IMG/VR virus record: IMGVR_UViG_3300042868_003855
Location: 1-33,502 of that record
Strand: one strand, 5' to 3'
DNA length: 33,502 bases
From: a virus
Part shown: positions 1 through 33,502 of the stretch, one piece after another
How the letters are laid out: each line of letters starts with the position of its first letter
Position numbering within the stretch: the first letter of the stretch is position 1
Made by a program: the position numbers and the translations under genes
The notes under the pieces: generated by a model
The model's input: only the letters and a program-made list of their open reading frames with translations
Database searches by the model: none
What the model was told of the DNA's origin: nothing

Positions 1-88
1 TCAATCATTATTTAACGAATATTTAACAAACGGAAGTGGTGACGTATTCCCACAACATGGCAATTATTTATCAAATTGGTATTTATGA
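1..88 (+). CDS. Head-tail connector-like protein, 3' end (partial)
   Basis: The last 28 codons and the stop of the connector gene that is complete at 32748-33248. It is broken only because the circular genome was opened here. The stop codon TGA (86-88) overlaps the ATG of the next small ORF at 85 (ATGA), so the two are probably translationally coupled. Confidence 0.9.
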   Translation, partial: QSLFNEYLTNGSGDVFPQHGNYLSNWYL

Positions 89-219
89 AGAAAGAGGTAT
101 ATAAACCTAAACAAAACAATATTATTAAATTGGAGTTATATCTTAAGAAGATAGAGAAAGATGGCAAACAAAAAGATAAGCGAACTAACAGCGAAGGCAG
201 CGACATTAGAAGACACTGA
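85..219 (+). CDS. Small basic protein, 44 residues
   Basis: The ATG at 85 overlaps the connector stop as ATGA, and the frame runs to TGA at 217-219, overlapping the next gene by 59 bases. The product is rich in Lys and Glu, starts MKKEVYKPKQNN and has no recognised domain. It is supported by the second copy at 33245-33379: the three differences that fall in this frame (90, 111, 132) are all silent (AAG/AAA, AAA/AAG, TTG/TTA). Function unknown; its position suggests a small head or neck accessory protein. Confidence 0.6.
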   Translation: MKKEVYKPKQNNIIKLELYLKKIEKDGKQKDKRTNSEGSDIRRH

Positions 220-607
220 TTTATTAATGATTAGTGATTACAATGGCGCAACATACGACACTAAATATGTTACAGGCGCAAATGTAAGACCTTACAAAGT
301 ATATTTAGCTGTAATTAATCAAAGTGGTACAGGCGCACCTTCATCTTCTTGGAATTATGATGAATTTTCAACTACATTAACATGGGCGCGTACAGCAGTT
401 GGATCGTATACATTAACATCAAGTGGTACTGAATTTGCTAACTTAAAGACATACGTACAAATAACGACTGGGAATAGTGTATTAGGTTGGATAGGTGTAG
501 TTAGAACATCGACAAGCGTATTGACATTTAAAACATACGATGGAACGCAAACACTAGCTGATAGCGTTTTGTCATCTGCACAATTAGAAATTAAAATAAT
601 AAAATAA
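161..607 (+). CDS. Virion-associated protein (fibre-type N-terminus)
   Basis: 148 residues. The N-terminus MANKKISELTAKAATLEDTD has the K-I-S-E-L...D-x-D-L-L pattern found at the start of many phage head-fibre, collar or tail-fibre proteins. The rest is Thr/Ser/Val-rich and beta-type, ending in a short Lys/Ile tail. It lies between the connector and the tail-fibre-type gene, in a tightly packed run of virion genes. A structural role is inferred from composition, motif and place; whether it sits on head or tail cannot be told. The start is duplicated at 33321 by the contig overlap, with one silent difference. Confidence 0.65.
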   Translation: MANKKISELTAKAATLEDTDLLMISDYNGATYDTKYVTGANVRPYKVYLAVINQSGTGAPSSSWNYDEFSTTLTWARTAVGSYTLTSSGTEFANLKTYVQITTGNSVLGWIGVVRTSTSVLTFKTYDGTQTLADSVLSSAQLEIKIIK

Positions 608-2635: not shown

Positions 2636-2811
2636 AAATTTTAGACAGAATAAAAGCGCCAAGACCGAAGTTTTGGGTAAAAGTTGGCAAAGTAGGTGTA
2701 GCACTTACAATCGTAGGTGGTGTATTAGTAACTCCACTTCCAATGGTAGGAGGTGTATTGCTTACAATCGGAGCTACAGTTAAGTCAATCTCTCATTTAG
2801 CTGTAGAGTAA
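2632..2811 (+). CDS. Putative holin, 59 residues
   Basis: The ATG at 2632 overlaps the upstream stop (ATGA), and the TAA at 2809-2811 overlaps the endolysin ATG (TAATG). A basic N-terminus (MKILDRIKAPRPKFWVKVGK) precedes two hydrophobic segments at about residues 21-35 and 38-49, separated by Pro residues, with a short polar tail. This is the layout of the small membrane proteins found beside endolysins in Bacteroidetes phages. Holin function is inferred from size, two membrane segments and direct coupling to the endolysin. Confidence 0.65.
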   Translation: MKILDRIKAPRPKFWVKVGKVGVALTIVGGVLVTPLPMVGGVLLTIGATVKSISHLAVE

Positions 2812-3281
2812 TGGACCAACTAACAATTGATAGGATAGCAACTGCACATCCTAAAATTAGAGAAGAGTTAAAGAATTATTATATTGAATGTAATAATAAA
2901 CTGCCTAAGGGTGTTCGTTTGCGTTTTGCGTACGTTTATCGAAGTGTAGAGGAACAAAACAAGCTATACAATCAAAGACCTAAAGTTACGAACGCTAAAG
3001 GTGGACAATCGATACATAATTATTCTTTAGCTTTTGACATCGCTATATTACTAGATAAAGATAATAATGGAACTTTTGAGAGTATAGATTGGAATATTAG
3101 CTCTCCTTACTTTAAGTTAGTAGTAGACTATTTTAAATCCAAGGGTTATGAATGGGGTGGAGATTGGAAAAACTTTAAAGACTACCCACATTTTCAAAAA
3201 GCATTCGGTCACACATGGCAAACATTGAAAAACAAGCCTACATTTAAAGATACAAACGGAATATCTTATCCTATTTTGTAA
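2811..3281 (+). CDS. Endolysin, M15-family D-Ala-D-Ala / L-Ala-D-Glu peptidase
   Basis: 156 residues, the usual size for a single-domain M15 (VanY/CwlK-type) peptidase. The zinc-site pattern is complete: SIHNYSLAFD at residues 67-76 gives His69 and Asp76, and YPHFQ gives His127. The GG-D-W stretch before it and YRS (around Arg44) are also typical. There is no signal peptide, so export depends on the holin encoded just upstream. It cuts peptide stems of the host cell wall at the end of infection. A strong terminator follows, closing the late transcript. Confidence 0.9.
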   Translation: MDQLTIDRIATAHPKIREELKNYYIECNNKLPKGVRLRFAYVYRSVEEQNKLYNQRPKVTNAKGGQSIHNYSLAFDIAILLDKDNNGTFESIDWNISSPYFKLVVDYFKSKGYEWGGDWKNFKDYPHFQKAFGHTWQTLKNKPTFKDTNGISYPIL

Positions 3282-3302
3282 CTATATAACACTCTACTTT
3301 AG

Positions 3303-3332
3303 ACGCAATCTTAACCGGTTGCGTTTTTTTTT
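3303..3332 (+). terminator. Rho-independent terminator after the lysis genes
   Basis: Inverted repeat ACGCAATC (3303-3310) and GGTTGCGT (3317-3324), an 8-bp stem with one G-U pair and a 6-base loop, followed directly by a run of T. It ends the virion-lysis transcript and isolates the small unit downstream. Confidence 0.85.
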
Positions 3333-3374
3333 AACTTTATTTTATAAAATGTTATGATATTATAATAAAAGTAT

Positions 3375-3382
3375 TATATTTG
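3375..3382 (+). promoter_or_regulatory. Bacteroidetes-type -7 promoter element
   Basis: Exact TATATTTG, matching the TAnnTTTG -7 consensus, 31 bases before the ATG at 3414 and just after a terminator. No clear TTG -33 element is seen at 17-23 bases upstream; a GTTATG stretch lies near 3351. Confidence 0.6.
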
Positions 3383-3413
3383 TAAGGTATTAACAAATTA
3401 AAAACTATAAATT

Positions 3414-3554
3414 ATGATAGAATTAGTATTAGGTGGTGCAATTTACTGGGTAATTAGCCACATTGAAGAAGAACGTAAAATTAAAAAAAGATTAAAAGAT
3501 GCTAAAAAGAAGGTGTTTCCACAAGACTATCCACAATATTACACAAGTTTATAG
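3414..3554 (+). CDS. Small protein with hydrophobic N-terminus, 46 residues
   Basis: First gene after the 3375 promoter. The product starts MIELVLGGAIYWVISHIEEE, a short hydrophobic stretch, then turns into a highly basic helix (Lys/Arg) and ends with an aromatic QYYTSL tail. It looks like a peripheral or single-pass membrane peptide. No family recognised. The promoter at the right distance and the A-rich leader before the ATG support it being real. Confidence 0.55.
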   Translation: MIELVLGGAIYWVISHIEEERKIKKRLKDAKKKVFPQDYPQYYTSL

Positions 3555-3556
3555 TT

Positions 3557-3622
3557 ATGTTTGTAGCAAAAATGATACTAGCGATTATAGTAATAACGAT
3601 TACAATACTATTTATGTTATGA
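3557..3622 (+). CDS. Possible 21-residue transmembrane peptide
   Basis: Starts two bases after the preceding stop. After MFVAKM the sequence is almost wholly hydrophobic (ILAIIVITITILFML), which would make one membrane helix. Its TGA overlaps the ATG of the next gene as ATGA, like real neighbours in this genome. It is too short to be certain; coupling and clear hydrophobicity are the only support. Confidence 0.35.
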   Translation: MFVAKMILAIIVITITILFML

Positions 3623-3912
3623 CAAGTGAATTAGCAAGGAAGTTGAGCACAGAAACTTTAACAAATAGACTGCATAAACAGCCGTTTAACGTGACTATAT
3701 TAAAAGAGTTAAACAAACGTGCGACAAAGGTACATAAATGCCAAATAGAGGGGCAAAAAAGACTAGATAAAGAGAAAGCAAAGTATTTTAGTAAAGCAGT
3801 GTTAGGTTACAAAGATGCTGCTTATGCCACAGAAGACGAGATGTTAAACGGTTTTAGCTGCACATATGACGACTTAAGCCCAAGTGAGAAATCATTATAT
3901 AATAGATTATGA
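3619..3912 (+). CDS. Hypothetical basic protein, 97 residues
   Basis: The frame is open from 3499, but the upstream part overlaps the two preceding ORFs in another frame, and the ATG at 3619 makes an ATGA junction, so I place the start there. The product begins MTSELARKLSTETLTNRLHK. It is Lys/Arg-rich and helical through the middle (KRATKVHKCQIEGQKRLDKE) with an acidic C-terminal part. This could be a small helical nucleic-acid- or protein-binding factor, but no family is recognised. The end overlaps the next gene as ATGA. Confidence 0.6.
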   Translation: MTSELARKLSTETLTNRLHKQPFNVTILKELNKRATKVHKCQIEGQKRLDKEKAKYFSKAVLGYKDAAYATEDEMLNGFSCTYDDLSPSEKSLYNRL

Positions 3913-4136
3913 GAAAAAAATGTTTTACCTGTCGAACTAACTACCCTATGTTTTTTTATCATTTAGATGAGTCTAAATACAAGATAAAGGCAAATAAGGG
4001 TAAGACTATCGAATGCAGATTTTGTAGCCTTAAACGCAATATATTAGATAAAGGTTTTACGCATCGTATTGATGGGAAGTTTACATTTACACACGCAACC
4101 AAAACACAAATAATACTTAATTTTTTTAAACGATGA
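3909..4136 (+). CDS. Small zinc-ribbon-like protein, 75 residues
   Basis: Two Cys pairs, CFTC near residues 5-8 and CRFC near residues 36-39, are set 28 residues apart as in small zinc ribbons. Basic residues surround both pairs (KKCFTCR; IECRFCSLKRN). Such proteins often bind nucleic acids or other proteins. It is the last gene of a unit bounded by terminators and starts as ATGA on the previous stop. Zinc binding is inferred from Cys spacing only. Confidence 0.6.
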   Translation: MRKKCFTCRTNYPMFFYHLDESKYKIKANKGKTIECRFCSLKRNILDKGFTHRIDGKFTFTHATKTQIILNFFKR

Positions 4137-4140
4137 ATTT

Positions 4141-4167
4141 AAACCAGTCTAATAGGCTGGTTTTTTT
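4141..4167 (+). terminator. Rho-independent terminator closing the small-gene unit
   Basis: Stem AACCAGTC (4142-4149) with GGCTGGTT (4155-4162), 8 bp with one G-U pair around a 5-base loop, then a T run to 4167. Confidence 0.85.
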
Positions 4168-4226: not shown

Positions 4227-5345
4227 ATGGTTGAATTTAAAACCGAAATAATAGAGCTCTATAAGCAAGGAGTTAATATTACTAAAATCGCAAAGAAAAT
4301 CTGTGCAGAAAAAAACCTAGAATATTCTGACAGCAAACGAAGATTAGCTTCTGAAATCATAAGCAGAGAAAAAAGTCGTGGCGTATTTGAAGAGTGTGAA
4401 GCTGTAGGAATAGACCCAGATAAAATCAAAAACTATTGGTATAAAGGTAAGCACTATTCTATCAATGTAAAAGGTGATACTGACACGTTTAAATACGAAG
4501 ACTTTAAAGAAGACTTTATCGCATCGGTTAAGGATATTAAACCTAACTACATTCAGATAATTCGAACTGAATCAGAGGAAGAATCACACTGTTTACTGAT
4601 AGACCCTGCCGACATTCACGTAAATAAGCTATGTTCAGCGTTTGAAACAGGTGAGGAATACAATTCACAGATGGCAGTACAACGCGTTAAGGATGGGGTA
4701 GCGTCTATTTTAAGTAAGTGTAAAGGTTTTAATATAGATAAGATCATATTAATTGTAGGAAATGATGTCTTAAATACAGACAACGCACGAAATCAAACAA
4801 CAAAAGGAACACAACAGGACACGCATTTAAAATGGTTCGACGCGTTCTTAATGGCAAAGCAATTATATATAGATATTATTAGCACTTTAGTAGCAATCGC
4901 GGACCTAGAAGTAGTATATAATGTATCTAATCACGACGAAATGAGCGGGTTTTTCTTAATGGATAGTATTTATTCATGGTACAACGAACACCCAAACATC
5001 ACATTTAATCGTTCTCCTTCACATCGTAAATATACAACGTACGGAAATAACTTAATAGGAACTACACATGGAGATGGGGCTAAACAAAATGATCTTCCAT
5101 TATTGATGTGTCACGAAGCTAGTCAACACTGGCATGATTGTAAGCATAGATATTGGTTTACTCACCACGTACACCATAAAACAAGCAAGGATATCATGTC
5201 CGTACAAATTGAATCGTTACGCTCCCCTAGTCCAGCAGACTCATGGCATCACAAAAGCGGTTACCAACACTCCCCACTAGCAATAGAAGGCTTTATATTC
5301 CATAAAACACATGGTCAAGTCGCACGGCTTACGACAATTTTTTAA
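4227..5345 (+). CDS. Calcineurin-like metallophosphoesterase with N-terminal HTH-like domain
   Basis: 372 residues. The metal-binding pattern of the Mre11/SbcD-type phosphoesterase fold is readable in order: D-I-H at 129-131, GND at 178-180, SNHD at 234-237 (the GNHD motif), HGD at 281-283 and the HHVHH cluster at 313-317. Residues 1-60 are basic and helical, fitting a DNA-binding helix-turn-helix. Homologues in Bacteroidetes phages are usually annotated as metallophosphatase. A nuclease role on DNA is plausible but unproven. It starts its own unit after a terminator. Confidence 0.75.
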   Translation: MVEFKTEIIELYKQGVNITKIAKKICAEKNLEYSDSKRRLASEIISREKSRGVFEECEAVGIDPDKIKNYWYKGKHYSINVKGDTDTFKYEDFKEDFIASVKDIKPNYIQIIRTESEEESHCLLIDPADIHVNKLCSAFETGEEYNSQMAVQRVKDGVASILSKCKGFNIDKIILIVGNDVLNTDNARNQTTKGTQQDTHLKWFDAFLMAKQLYIDIISTLVAIADLEVVYNVSNHDEMSGFFLMDSIYSWYNEHPNITFNRSPSHRKYTTYGNNLIGTTHGDGAKQNDLPLLMCHEASQHWHDCKHRYWFTHHVHHKTSKDIMSVQIESLRSPSPADSWHHKSGYQHSPLAIEGFIFHKTHGQVARLTTIF

Positions 5346-5920: not shown

Positions 5921-5954
5921 TTGAAACAAATTGACGAAAGTATAGTTATATTTG
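5921..5954 (+). promoter_or_regulatory. Bacteroidetes-type promoter for the replication operon
   Basis: Exact -7 box TATATTTG at 5947-5954 with a TTG at 5921-5923, a spacing of 23 bases, within the 17-23 reported for flavobacterial promoters. It precedes pseudoknot element A and the first HNH gene. Confidence 0.7.
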
Positions 5955-6057: not shown

Positions 6058-6531
6058 ATGAAAAAAGAAGTATGGAAATCAATTCCGAATTATGAAGGAC
6101 TTTACGAAGTCAGCTCTTTAGGTAGAGTGAAATCACTTAAAAAAAATAAATGTTTAAATCCATTTATATCTACAAGATATTTTAGAGTTGGACTTTCTAA
6201 AAATGGAATTCAAAAAACTAAAAGAGTTCATTCTTTAGTTTCCGAAGCGTTTTTAAATCATGTACCTTGTGGAATGAAATTAGTTATTGATCATATAAAT
6301 GGTGATAAACATGATAATAGAGTAGATAATTTGCAAATAGTTTCACAAAGAGAAAATATTAGTAAGATGAATGGTAAATTTTCATCTAAATATATTGGAG
6401 TAAGTTGGGATAAAAAAGCAAATAAATGGACTGCAAAAATAATGATTAACAAAAAAAATTATCATTTAGGAGTATTTAATTGTGAATTAGCAGCAAGTCA
6501 AGTATATCAAAATAAATTAAAAGAAATATAA
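6058..6531 (+). CDS. HNH homing endonuclease (NUMOD4-HNH-AP2)
   Basis: 157 residues with three readable parts. NUMOD4: VWKSIPNYEGLYEVSSLGRV at 5-24. HNH: RVHSLV with His58, DHIN at 78-81, then HDNRVDNL at 85-92. AP2-type DNA-binding domain: SSKYIGVSWDKKANKWTAKI from 109 to the end, closing with ASQVYQNKLKEI. Such free-standing enzymes nick or cut a target in related phage genomes and copy themselves in by repair. The gene sits between pseudoknot element A and a decayed relative, inside the replication operon. It is closely related to the HNH gene at 14295. Confidence 0.9.
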   Translation: MKKEVWKSIPNYEGLYEVSSLGRVKSLKKNKCLNPFISTRYFRVGLSKNGIQKTKRVHSLVSEAFLNHVPCGMKLVIDHINGDKHDNRVDNLQIVSQRENISKMNGKFSSKYIGVSWDKKANKWTAKIMINKKNYHLGVFNCELAASQVYQNKLKEI

Positions 6532-6806
6532 TGGTAGAAGAGTGGAAGCATCTAGAAGAGCATTATTACATTAGTAACTTTGGTAATGTTATGAATAAAA
6601 ACACTAATCGTAACTTAAAGCCAATTAAGTGCAATCAATATAAAACAAAAGTAACTTTGACACTAGAGAATAATAGTAGAAAAAAAGATGTATTTTTGGC
6701 GTCCGAAGTTGCTAGGAAGTTCATTAGTGAATCATTTAAGAAAGTAACTAGAATAGATAAAGACGTATTTAATAATAGAGTAGATAATTTAAAAGTAATA
6801 TTATGA
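6531..6806 (+). CDS. Decayed NUMOD4/HNH-like protein, probably without nuclease activity
   Basis: 91 residues. EEWKHLEEHYYISNFGNVMN matches the NUMOD4 pattern (W-K...Y-x-I-S-N-x-G-x-V), and the end DVFNNRVDNLKVIL matches the segment after the HNH core (N-R-V-D-N-L). The DHIN block and the His residues between are missing, and there is no AP2 domain. It could be a remnant or a shortened DNA-binding protein kept for regulation. It starts on the last base of the HNH stop and ends as ATGA with the methyltransferase, so the frame has been kept open. Confidence 0.6.
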   Translation: MVEEWKHLEEHYYISNFGNVMNKNTNRNLKPIKCNQYKTKVTLTLENNSRKKDVFLASEVARKFISESFKKVTRIDKDVFNNRVDNLKVIL

Positions 6807-7411
6807 AAATAACTAACGAAGACAACATGGAGTTAATGGCTCGCTATCCTGACAACTATTTTGACCTTGCAATAGTTGACCCACCTTATGGAATAAATGC
6901 TGGTAAAATGACAATGGGTAGTGGGAAACATAAATTTAAACAAGGTAAAGATTGGGATAATAAAATACCATCTTCAGAATATTTTAATGAATTATTTAGA
7001 GTAAGTAAAAATCAAATTATATGGGGTGGTAATTACTTTCCATTACCATTAAATAATAATTGGGTAATATGGGATAAATTAAATCCAAACTTATCTTTTT
7101 CAGAAGCTGAATTAGCTTGGTGTTCAATAAACAAAAATGTTAGAGTATTTAAAAGGTATTCAGCAATGGAGGATGAGGATGGTAAAAAACAACATCCAAC
7201 ACAAAAGCCTATATTATTATATAAATATTGTCTTGAAAAATATGCAAAGCAAGGAGATAAAATACTTGATACCCACTTAGGTTCAGGTAGTATAGCAATA
7301 GCTTGCCATGACTACGGCTTTGATTTTACAGCTTGTGAATTAGACAAAGAATACTTTGATAAAGCAATGCAACGAATTAGTAACCACGTATCACAACAAA
7401 AATTATTTTAA
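6803..7411 (+). CDS. DNA adenine-N6 (or cytosine-N4) methyltransferase
   Basis: 202 residues. Motif IV DPPY at 26-29 comes before HPTQKP at 131-136 and the AdoMet-binding DTHLGSGS at 156-163, an order of the beta type. The body is short and has little room for a target-recognition domain, as in phage orphan methyltransferases. No restriction enzyme is adjacent, so protection of phage DNA or regulation is likely. The C-terminus SNHVSQQKLF ends in QQKLF, matching the sliding-clamp-binding motif (QxxLF), and the same ending occurs on the Mom-like protein. Confidence 0.85.
   Translation: MKITNEDNMELMARYPDNYFDLAIVDPPYGINAGKMTMGSGKHKFKQGKDWDNKIPSSEYFNELFRVSKNQIIWGGNYFPLPLNNNWVIWDKLNPNLSFSEAELAWCSINKNVRVFKRYSAMEDEDGKKQHPTQKPILLYKYCLEKYAKQGDKILDTHLGSGSIAIACHDYGFDFTACELDKEYFDKAMQRISNHVSQQKLF
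7386..7411 (+). repeat. 26-base exact repeat, copy 1
   Basis: The last 26 bases of the methyltransferase gene, stop codon included, are identical to 9858-9883. In both places it encodes the same V-S-Q-Q-K-L-F tail. Confidence 0.9.
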
Positions 7412-11967: not shown

Positions 11968-11975
11968 TATATTTG
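11968..11975 (+). promoter_or_regulatory. Bacteroidetes-type -7 promoter element
   Basis: Exact TATATTTG, 28 bases before the ATG at 12004, in the gap after the VRR-NUC gene. No TTG at the expected -33 spacing is obvious; TGTAAC lies about 20 bases upstream. Confidence 0.6.
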
Positions 11976-14199: not shown

Positions 14200-14207
14200 T
14201 ATATTTG
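14200..14207 (+). promoter_or_regulatory. Bacteroidetes-type -7 promoter element
   Basis: Exact TATATTTG eight bases before P1 of element C. No clear TTG element at -33; TGTTAAAG begins near 14178. Confidence 0.6.
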
Positions 14208-14294: not shown

Positions 14295-14780
14295 ATGGAA
14301 ATATGGAAACCAGTAAAAGATTATGAAGGACTTTACGAAGTAAGTAACTTAGGTAGAGTACAATCGTTAAATTATAGAAGAACTAAACAAGTTAGATGTT
14401 TAAGTGCAACCTATAATGCCAAGGGTTATCTTCAAGTATTATTATGTAATAATGGTAAAAAACAAACAAGAACAGTCCATTTAATAGTAGCTGAATCTTT
14501 TTTGAATCATACTCGATGTGGAATGAAATTAGTTGTTGACCATATAAATGATGTTAGAAATGATAACAGACTTGAAAACTTAAGAATTATAACTAATAGA
14601 GAAAACACGTATAGAACACAAGATAAATATGCGTCTAAATATAAGGGTGTTTGTTGGTCTGAATCAAGTAAAAAATGGAGAGCTAAAATAACTATAGCAA
14701 ATAAATGCATACATCTTGGAGTGTTTAATACGGAAGAAGAAGCAAGTGAAGTATACCAAAATAAATTAAAAACGTTATGA
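14295..14780 (+). CDS. HNH homing endonuclease (NUMOD4-HNH-AP2), second copy
   Basis: 161 residues. NUMOD4: EIWKPVKDYEGLYEVSNLGR at 2-21. HNH: VHLIVAESF with His62, DHIN at 82-85, NDNRLENL at 89-96. AP2: KYKGVCWSESSKKWRAKITI with the terminal SEVYQNKLKTL. It is a diverged paralogue of the HNH gene at 6058, with some stretches still identical in DNA, for example 22 bases around GAAGGACTTTACGAAGT. It sits behind element C and overlaps the next gene as ATGA. Confidence 0.9.
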   Translation: MEIWKPVKDYEGLYEVSNLGRVQSLNYRRTKQVRCLSATYNAKGYLQVLLCNNGKKQTRTVHLIVAESFLNHTRCGMKLVVDHINDVRNDNRLENLRIITNRENTYRTQDKYASKYKGVCWSESSKKWRAKITIANKCIHLGVFNTEEEASEVYQNKLKTL

Positions 14781-32747: not shown

Positions 32748-33248
32748 ATGGCAGAAGCATTATTAATAGGGAAAGCAGATTTGCAAGCGTACACAGCATT
32801 AAATGCTAATGTAGATTCTGACAAAATAATACCATTTATAAAGATAGCACAGGATATTTGGCTTTTGCAATATGTAGGTACTGACTTAATGACTAAAATT
32901 AAGAATGATATAGCAGCAAGTACATTGAGTGGTAACTATGCGACGCTTGTAAATACGTATTTAAAACCAATGTTGATACATTTTACGATGGTAGAATACT
33001 TACCGTTTGCAGCTTATTCAATTTCTAATAAAGGACTATACAAACATAGTTCTGAAAATGCTGAAATTGTAAGTAAAGAAGAGGTTGATTATTTGATTGA
33101 GAAAGAAAAACGTATTGCTGAAAATTACGCGCAAAGATTTTTAGATTACATGGTTGTAAATCAATCATTATTTAACGAATATTTAACAAACGGAAGTGGT
33201 GACGTATTCCCACAACATGGCAATTATTTATCAAATTGGTATTTATGA
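32748..33248 (+). CDS. Head-tail connector-like protein (DUF6712 type)
   Basis: 166 residues. LIGKADLQAYTALNANVDSD, IIPFIKIAQDIWLLQYVGTD and KPMLIHFTMVEYLPFAAYSI, then KEEVDYLIEKEKRIAENYAQ and VFPQHGNYLSNWYL match the small connector-type proteins that follow the portal in Bacteroidetes phages. Helical, as in the HK97 gp6-type family. It would close the head and form the tail joint. The end of the gene is duplicated at 1-88. Confidence 0.65.
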   Translation: MAEALLIGKADLQAYTALNANVDSDKIIPFIKIAQDIWLLQYVGTDLMTKIKNDIAASTLSGNYATLVNTYLKPMLIHFTMVEYLPFAAYSISNKGLYKHSSENAEIVSKEEVDYLIEKEKRIAENYAQRFLDYMVVNQSLFNEYLTNGSGDVFPQHGNYLSNWYL

Positions 33249-33379
33249 AAAAAGAGGTATATAAACCTAAGCAAAACAATATTATTAAATTAGAGTTATA
33301 TCTTAAGAAGATAGAGAAAGATGGCAAACAAAAAGATAAGCGAACTAACAGCGAAGGCAGCGACATTAGAAGACACTGA
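33245..33379 (+). CDS. Small basic protein, 44 residues (second copy of 85-219)
   Basis: The overlap copy of the ORF at 85. Its three differences from the first copy are all third-position and silent, which supports this ORF as coding in both genome variants. The ATGA junction with the connector gene is kept. Confidence 0.6.
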   Translation: MKKEVYKPKQNNIIKLELYLKKIEKDGKQKDKRTNSEGSDIRRH

Positions 33380-33502
33380 TTTATTAATGATTAGTGATTA
33401 CAATGGAGCAACATACGACACTAAATATGTTACAGGCGCAAATGTAAGACCTTACAAAGTATATTTAGCTGTAATTAATCAAAGTGGTACAGGCGCACCT
33501 TC
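33321..33502 (+). CDS. Virion-associated protein, 5' part (overlap copy, partial)
   Basis: Same start as the complete gene at 161-607; cut by the window end. The only difference inside it is at 33407 (GGC in the first copy, GGA here), which leaves Gly unchanged. Confidence 0.8.
   Translation, partial: MANKKISELTAKAATLEDTDLLMISDYNGATYDTKYVTGANVRPYKVYLAVINQSGTGAP

Follow-up and report, generated by a model that had tools for sequence, protein, structure and literature searches.

The window, that is, the whole 33,502-base stretch analysed here, is a single virus contig carrying a compact unit of four small open reading frames at the border of its lysis genes and its DNA-metabolism genes (Table 1). 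As the original prediction had claimed, the unit stands apart, with a terminator on each side and a TATATTTG promoter of its own, and every one of these elements was found in place. The first and last 342 bases of the window (1-342 and 33161-33502) form an imperfect terminal repeat that is 98.8% identical, and because of this repeat the contig is probably the near-complete genome of a terminally redundant or circular phage; among its genes, those for portal, tape measure, terminase, helicase, methyltransferase and exonuclease can be identified. The large terminase is nearest to those of the Nonlabens phages P12024L/S (56% identity), and the phosphoesterase 3′ of the unit is 47% identical to those of lillamy, snork and other Flavobacterium phages, with two cyanophage S-CBS2 records slightly closer (54%). 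The relatives of the terminase and phosphoesterase, together with the TATATTTG promoter, point to a Bacteroidota host.

Table 1. Features of the four-gene unit and of its two flanks in the window.
Feature	Position	Strand	Characteristics
M15-type endolysin, upstream flank	2811..3281	+	Pfam PF13539, E 1.2e-16
Intrinsic terminator closing the lysis operon	3301..3326	+	10-pair stem, then T run
Promoter block	3350..3382	+	terminal Bacteroidota -7 element TATATTTG at 3375-3382
ORF46	3414..3554	+	46 aa; short N-terminal membrane segment and basic C-terminal half
ORF21	3557..3622	+	21 aa; single transmembrane peptide
ORF97	3619..3912	+	97 aa; helical N-terminal part, then a conserved tail at the C-terminus
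C97 tail	3796..3909	+	constant C-terminal part, about residues 60-97 of ORF97
ORF75	3909..4136	+	75 aa; two CxxC pairs, zinc-ribbon-like
Intrinsic terminator closing the unit	4141..4163	+	10-pair stem, then T run
Phosphoesterase-like 'DNA repair exonuclease', downstream flank	4227..5345	+	phrog_704, E 3.9e-70

The upstream and downstream terminator hairpins fold at -11.8 kcal/mol (z = -4.7) and -12.8 kcal/mol (z = -4.5), respectively, and 0/200 shuffles reached the native folding energy; additionally, a terminator-like hairpin of differing sequence occupies the position of the upstream one in several relatives. Bacteroidota promoters are unlike those of E. coli and have a -33/-7 consensus of TTTG/TANNTTTG, refined to TAHHTTTG (PMC6847099). 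At the start of the interval, a block of TTATAATAA followed by TATATTTG is present in 14 of the 15 close relatives examined, window included, and was not found within 3.2 kb in L040 (L numbers denote individual viral loci). No TTTG at -33 is evident at the unit's promoter, and TANNTTTG is not enriched in the window, where 65 occurrences stand against 55.7 expected and 7/100 shuffles reach 65.

All four ORFs are under purifying selection, with a pooled pN/pS of 0.37 for ORF46 (n=14), 0.37 for ORF21 (n=11), 0.35 for ORF97 (n=15) and 0.27 for ORF75 (n=15), and the starts of ORF97 and ORF75 each lie within an ATGA overlap. The 21-codon transmembrane ORF, originally put forward as a possible peptide, is probably a real gene, because its substitutions too are mostly silent per site; a transmembrane peptide directly follows ORF46 in 17/17 relatives, window included, as read by eye. 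Profile searches of the window's proteins in Pfam, PHROGs, NCBIfam and PADLOC (PHROGs only for ORF21, PADLOC thus covering ORF46, ORF97 and ORF75) gave nothing above threshold, in agreement with the earlier impression that none belongs to a known family. A reading of the unit as an RNA gene was rejected, with no Rfam match and no tRNA in it. ORF46 was found in 22 viral loci and ORF75 in 31.

The close-relative set (n = 17) consists of the window and 16 contigs in which the exonuclease reaches 85% identity or more and is preceded by enough sequence; contigs starting inside or just before the exonuclease were left unscored (e.g. L031/L041, L088, L090, L091, L095, L096), and the genes in the interval were counted by eye. 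The order ORF46, transmembrane peptide (21 to ~34 residues), ORF97-type gene and ORF75 is kept in 17/17, and L005, which falls outside the set with an exonuclease only 38% identical, has all four genes as well. Three members, namely the window, L012 and L019, hold the bare four-gene interval, and in the other close relatives up to ~8 extra small genes lie on either side of the four or among them; the units of L008 and L010 are near-identical. The four genes had been read as a moron-like cassette, with replacement by other small genes in related phages as a point to check; instead of exchanged moron cargo, they are a fixed framework with exchange around and between them, and other small genes were seen in the corresponding slot of sister phages. 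The four genes are the core of a mobile accessory operon, not its exchanged cargo, and the window's unit is best explained as the smallest version of an accessory operon that belongs to flavophage-like phages. The endolysin upstream is of two types, the one differing from the window's occurring in L002, L003, L007, L012, L019 and L043, and the unit is unchanged beside both, which is not the behaviour of the core virion or lysis set that had been named as the outcome contrary to the prediction.

The cargo inserted around this framework includes a GIY-YIG protein (L006), a NUMOD4-HNH protein (L009), an HTH-like protein (L040, sub-threshold) and zinc-ribbon-like proteins. Additionally, a PAPS-reductase-domain protein is present in L044, and PADLOC gave SspD-like matches in L044 and L040; such PAPS-reductase/SspD-like genes were profile-tested in L044 (2517-3347) and L040 (4752-5591) and recognised by eye in L013 (about 6281-7123) and L251 (735-1643), they recur in the neighbourhood of the unit or of tail genes, and they possibly serve phage DNA phosphorothioation or counter-defence. 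A second cargo family has a constant C-terminal FFRDNGENxIGLTIxxFVxLYL and varying N-termini; it is absent from the window, lies 3′ of ORF75 in most relatives, and is found around the final gene ahead of the exonuclease in L002, L005, L006, L007, L009, L011, L015, L018, L044 and others. In L003 (1394-1720), ORF46 has lost its own start and extends a small ORF lying upstream, to whose C-terminus it is fused in frame.

Outside the close relatives, 18 records were searched with profiles, comprising 15 sister phages (exonuclease 75-79% identical, a terminase of 73-79% identity being common to four of them), two isolates and one positive control. The tail-family profile matched 1/18, the control, and hence 0/15 sisters, and the ORF75 profile matched 3/18 including the control, with 2/15 sisters, both counts coming from records that may be fragments. 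In the sisters L054, L069 and L085 the corresponding slot is filled by different small genes, including those for a small charged-tail membrane protein and a small helical basic protein, and in L054 also for a distant ORF75 relative. Conversely, ORF97- or ORF75-type genes are carried by L013 (40.9 kb) and L040 (34.6 kb), neither of which has a terminase match, and the window's terminase matched 0/24 distant tail records, the same query matching the close relatives; ORF75 was matched in 9/24 of these distant records and not in 15/24, which may be fragments. The ORF97 and ORF75 genes of L013, 80% and 91% identical in DNA to those of the window, follow apparent recombination genes, do not precede the exonuclease and have no ORF46 nearby. 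By this distribution, and in line with the accessory character first suggested, the unit is accessory and mobile and not a virion or lysis set, because sisters sharing its terminase and exonuclease lack it and terminase-unmatched records hold parts of it, the absences being provisional since the records may be fragments.

A small membrane gene stands just before the tail gene in the distant loci L256 (850-1253), L263 (152-555) and L241 (2392-2846), being ORF46-like in L256 and L263, and an HTH-like gene of 86-95 residues with a YPI(K/R)-type end also precedes the tail gene in all three; these arrangements suggest an older version of the operon. An ORF that starts with a long GSGYGDG-type repeat lies ~1.3-2.1 kb ahead of the exonuclease in L049 (233 residues) and L051 (251 residues), and the length of the repeat is unequal between the two phages. 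In the Nonlabens phage P12024L (NC_018272), whose TerL is 56-57% identical to that of the window, a slot like the unit's, with TATATTTG and a hairpin, lies between the lysis and metallophosphatase genes and holds the tiny gene gp16; unlike the unit's genes, gp16 encodes an unrelated 50-aa protein, and no tail or ORF75 match was found in NC_018272.

An unexpected feature of the unit lies in ORF97. Its ~35-residue C-terminal tail occurs on 59 distinct phage proteins of 58-147 residues, collected with profiles fitted to the fetched loci, and approximates the pattern G-x-K-x-E-x-Y-x-[TS]-E-x-E-M-[LI]-x-G-[FY]-x(3)-Y-x-x-L-S-x-x-E-K-x-[IM]-Y, which was read by eye and from which several members deviate in individual residues. 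From the C-terminus, the LS motif is at most 29 residues away in 59/59 and at most 20 in 58/59. Across 30 members, L86, E90 and K91 are invariant and Y69, E72, Y83 and S87 near-invariant, within a low overall identity. Each locus has one distinct tail protein, never two, and 12 of 21 searched records matched the tail profile exactly once. At E <= 1e-3 in BLAST, the tails (n=59) form one cluster and the fronts (n=58, that of L258 being too short) form 17, the unity of the tails being partly by construction, since the family was collected via the tail, and the diversity of the fronts not; at E <= 0.01 the fronts form 13 clusters, one with 37 members. Two fronts occur among the 17 close relatives, the window's and another in L018, L019, L043 and L044. 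A window-type front on the same tail was also recognised by eye and with MAFFT in the distant L238, L242, L244, L246, L252, L253 and L269, and these are not joined to the window's front by BLAST at E <= 1e-3. ORF97 is thus shown, at the level of sequence, to be a member of an undescribed chimeric phage family with a constant tail and exchangeable fronts.

Several of the fronts appear HTH-like from weak matches, all below curated cut-offs: HTH_23 was matched in 5/30 and Sigma70_r4_2 in 3/30 members at E up to 0.1, and PHROGs gave phrog_4151 'DNA binding' for residues 8-46 of L255 and phrog_517 'HTH' for residues 24-56 of L270, leaving both tails unmatched. Terminase_5 was matched in 4/30 members, likewise at E up to 0.1. 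The window's own ORF97 has no HTH or other profile match in Pfam, PHROGs or NCBIfam. Its predicted structure is all-helical (helices 3-8, 11-20, 25-57, 72-77 and 88-96; pLDDT 80.7, pTM 0.41) and has no fold match in the PDB at E <= 0.001; ribosomal-protein rows were disbelieved with an rmsd mostly near 15, a single match to solved-structure sequences (E 0.022) was taken as chance, and an interleukin 22 Pfam match of one member (E 3.3e-5) was judged spurious. For the C97 tail, no Pfam, PHROGs or NCBIfam model matched in the scanned members, the matched stretch being visible in part of the scans. The tail is acidic and has a short predicted helix at its end, features by which it could suit the role of a docking peptide. 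Among INPHARED phages, no match was found for ORF97, ORF75 or three other tail proteins, and in a collection of bacterial and archaeal genomes the tail profile gave 191 pattern matches and the ORF75 profile five, of which none was confirmed.

In the ORF75 family (n=25), the second, third and fourth cysteines of the two CxxC pairs are invariant, L012 having Tyr at the first, and in many loci ORF75-type proteins adjoin or neighbour tail proteins. The model of the window's ORF75 (pLDDT 82.7, pTM 0.64) has no PDB fold match at E <= 0.001, and its weak matches to solved-structure sequences, ribosomal and topoisomerase ones among them, were taken as chance. ORF75 resembles the Lar-like restriction alleviation family phrog_5558 and the endonuclease VII family phrog_1035 in being small and having two CxxC pairs, and phrog_5558 touches 15/25 family members (best E 2.9e-4) and phrog_1035 weakly matches 4/25. 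However, unlike members of these families, the window's ORF75 reaches only E 0.11 with phrog_5558, which is not significant, it has no Pfam match above cut-off, and its 75 residues leave no space for a nuclease domain, so that membership in endonuclease VII was rejected. The evidence goes as far as a zinc-ribbon-like protein that binds nucleic acid or protein, and no further.

Based on these findings, we tentatively propose, with a confidence somewhat short of even, that the unit is an early host-takeover or regulatory accessory operon, in which ORF97 would combine a docking tail with an exchangeable head. First, the TATATTTG promoter, recognised as sequence, could be read by the host primary sigma factor early in infection, a timing that we infer, and the terminators, likewise known as sequence, would insulate the operon. 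Of its products, ORF46 would be a basic peptide anchored in the membrane, ORF21 a purely transmembrane peptide, ORF97 a small regulator and ORF75 a zinc-ribbon-like protein. The C97 tail could then dock to one conserved partner, e.g. a phage protein or the RNA polymerase of the host, and DNA or a second target could be selected by the exchangeable front, which in general may bind DNA; in this way the operon would redirect the host early. For further small genes, as seen in the close relatives, the operon is a docking site. In a more specific form that we consider unlikely, ORF97 would be a takeover adaptor, its tail recognising a fixed Bacteroidota component, possibly the divergent RNA polymerase holoenzyme, and its swapped front picking the DNA or protein that is brought there, with the TATATTTG operon trading adaptors and small effectors between phages.

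The main rival, which we regard as somewhat unlikely, is a counter-defence operon of small defence inhibitors with an adjacent autoregulatory DNA-binding protein, in which ORF75 would be a Lar-type restriction alleviator. The acr-aca anti-CRISPR operons are such a case, with small genes, a linked small regulator and a promoter of their own. The unit is like them in its small genes, its linked small putative regulator and its own promoter; unlike in acr-aca, the unit's regulator has a variable front on a constant tail. The unit's own promoter and terminators, its tiny proteins and variable neighbours and the phrog_5558 matches of the ORF75 family fit a counter-defence reading. However, the phrog_5558 match is generic, because endonuclease VII and HNH zinc regions are touched by the ORF75 family too and the match is not significant for the window's own ORF75; PADLOC is blank for the three proteins it covered, and the core is conserved across relatives, unlike typical exchangeable inhibitors.

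The two neighbouring membrane peptides kept in all 17 relatives would also suit superinfection exclusion or membrane takeover, with ORF46 and ORF21 as the inner-membrane components and ORF97 and ORF75 as their regulators, and the different small charged-tail membrane protein near small basic genes in the sister slot of L054, L069 and L085 is consistent with such a role. However, exclusion is one among several possible membrane roles, it is not obvious where an ORF97 family with swapped fronts would fit in, and L013 has ORF97 and ORF75 with no ORF46 close by, and we consider this explanation improbable. The mosaic identity along the unit raises another alternative, in which the region is an ordinary, weakly constrained early region, the shared gene ends are recombination anchors and the tail is a relic of recombination; 26/58 tail genes end in an ATGA overlap, which would ease the swapping of whole genes. 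However, the tail is recognisable in amino acids on fronts of 17 clusters, with three invariant residues, and a DNA anchor would not keep residues in sequences so diverged, which makes this reading decidedly doubtful. An extra lysis set (holin or spanin-like) paired with the adjoining endolysin, as the two membrane peptides might hint, is very improbable and was rejected, since the unit has a separate terminator and promoter, is unchanged when the endolysin family changes and is provisionally absent from sister phages, whose records may be fragments.

Among the known systems close to the unit are phage morons, or discretionary early accessory genes. Like morons, the unit has, at the sequence level, a promoter and terminators of its own, and it holds small genes of no known family; these are present in one lineage, and their absence from its sisters, whose records may be fragments, is provisional. 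Unlike morons, its four genes are in all 17 close relatives as a framework for insertions, and its base composition is not foreign, with 29.6% GC vs 31.7% in the window and 22% of 865-bp windows equally low. Phage proteins are widely mosaic, including the transcription regulation and DNA-binding classes, and more mosaicism is expected among accessory proteins and those of unknown function (PMC10684548, Nat Commun 2023). Like the domain-shuffled proteins described there, the C97 family exhibits exchange of protein parts; unlike them, its constant part is a C-terminal tail of ~35 residues. The C97 tail family would be a new instance of phage protein mosaicism. No published description of the operon or of the C97 tail was found among titles and the starts of abstracts, which leaves absence from print unproven.

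A single-copy tail that is constant on many fronts means that one pull-down could name the partner for the whole family, and the slot marks a source of unknown small effectors that can be obtained by comparing relatives; to our knowledge, Bacteroidota phages have so far yielded few early takeover proteins. Additionally, the window holds three more TATATTTG motifs, intergenic and on the + strand (5947-5954, 11968-11975 and 14200-14207), which look like further promoters. The motifs at 5947 and 14200 are followed by HNH-type genes (6058-6531 and 14295-14780, respectively) that resemble each other, and the gene at 6058-6531, the one profile-searched, has NUMOD4, HNH_3 and AP2 matches.
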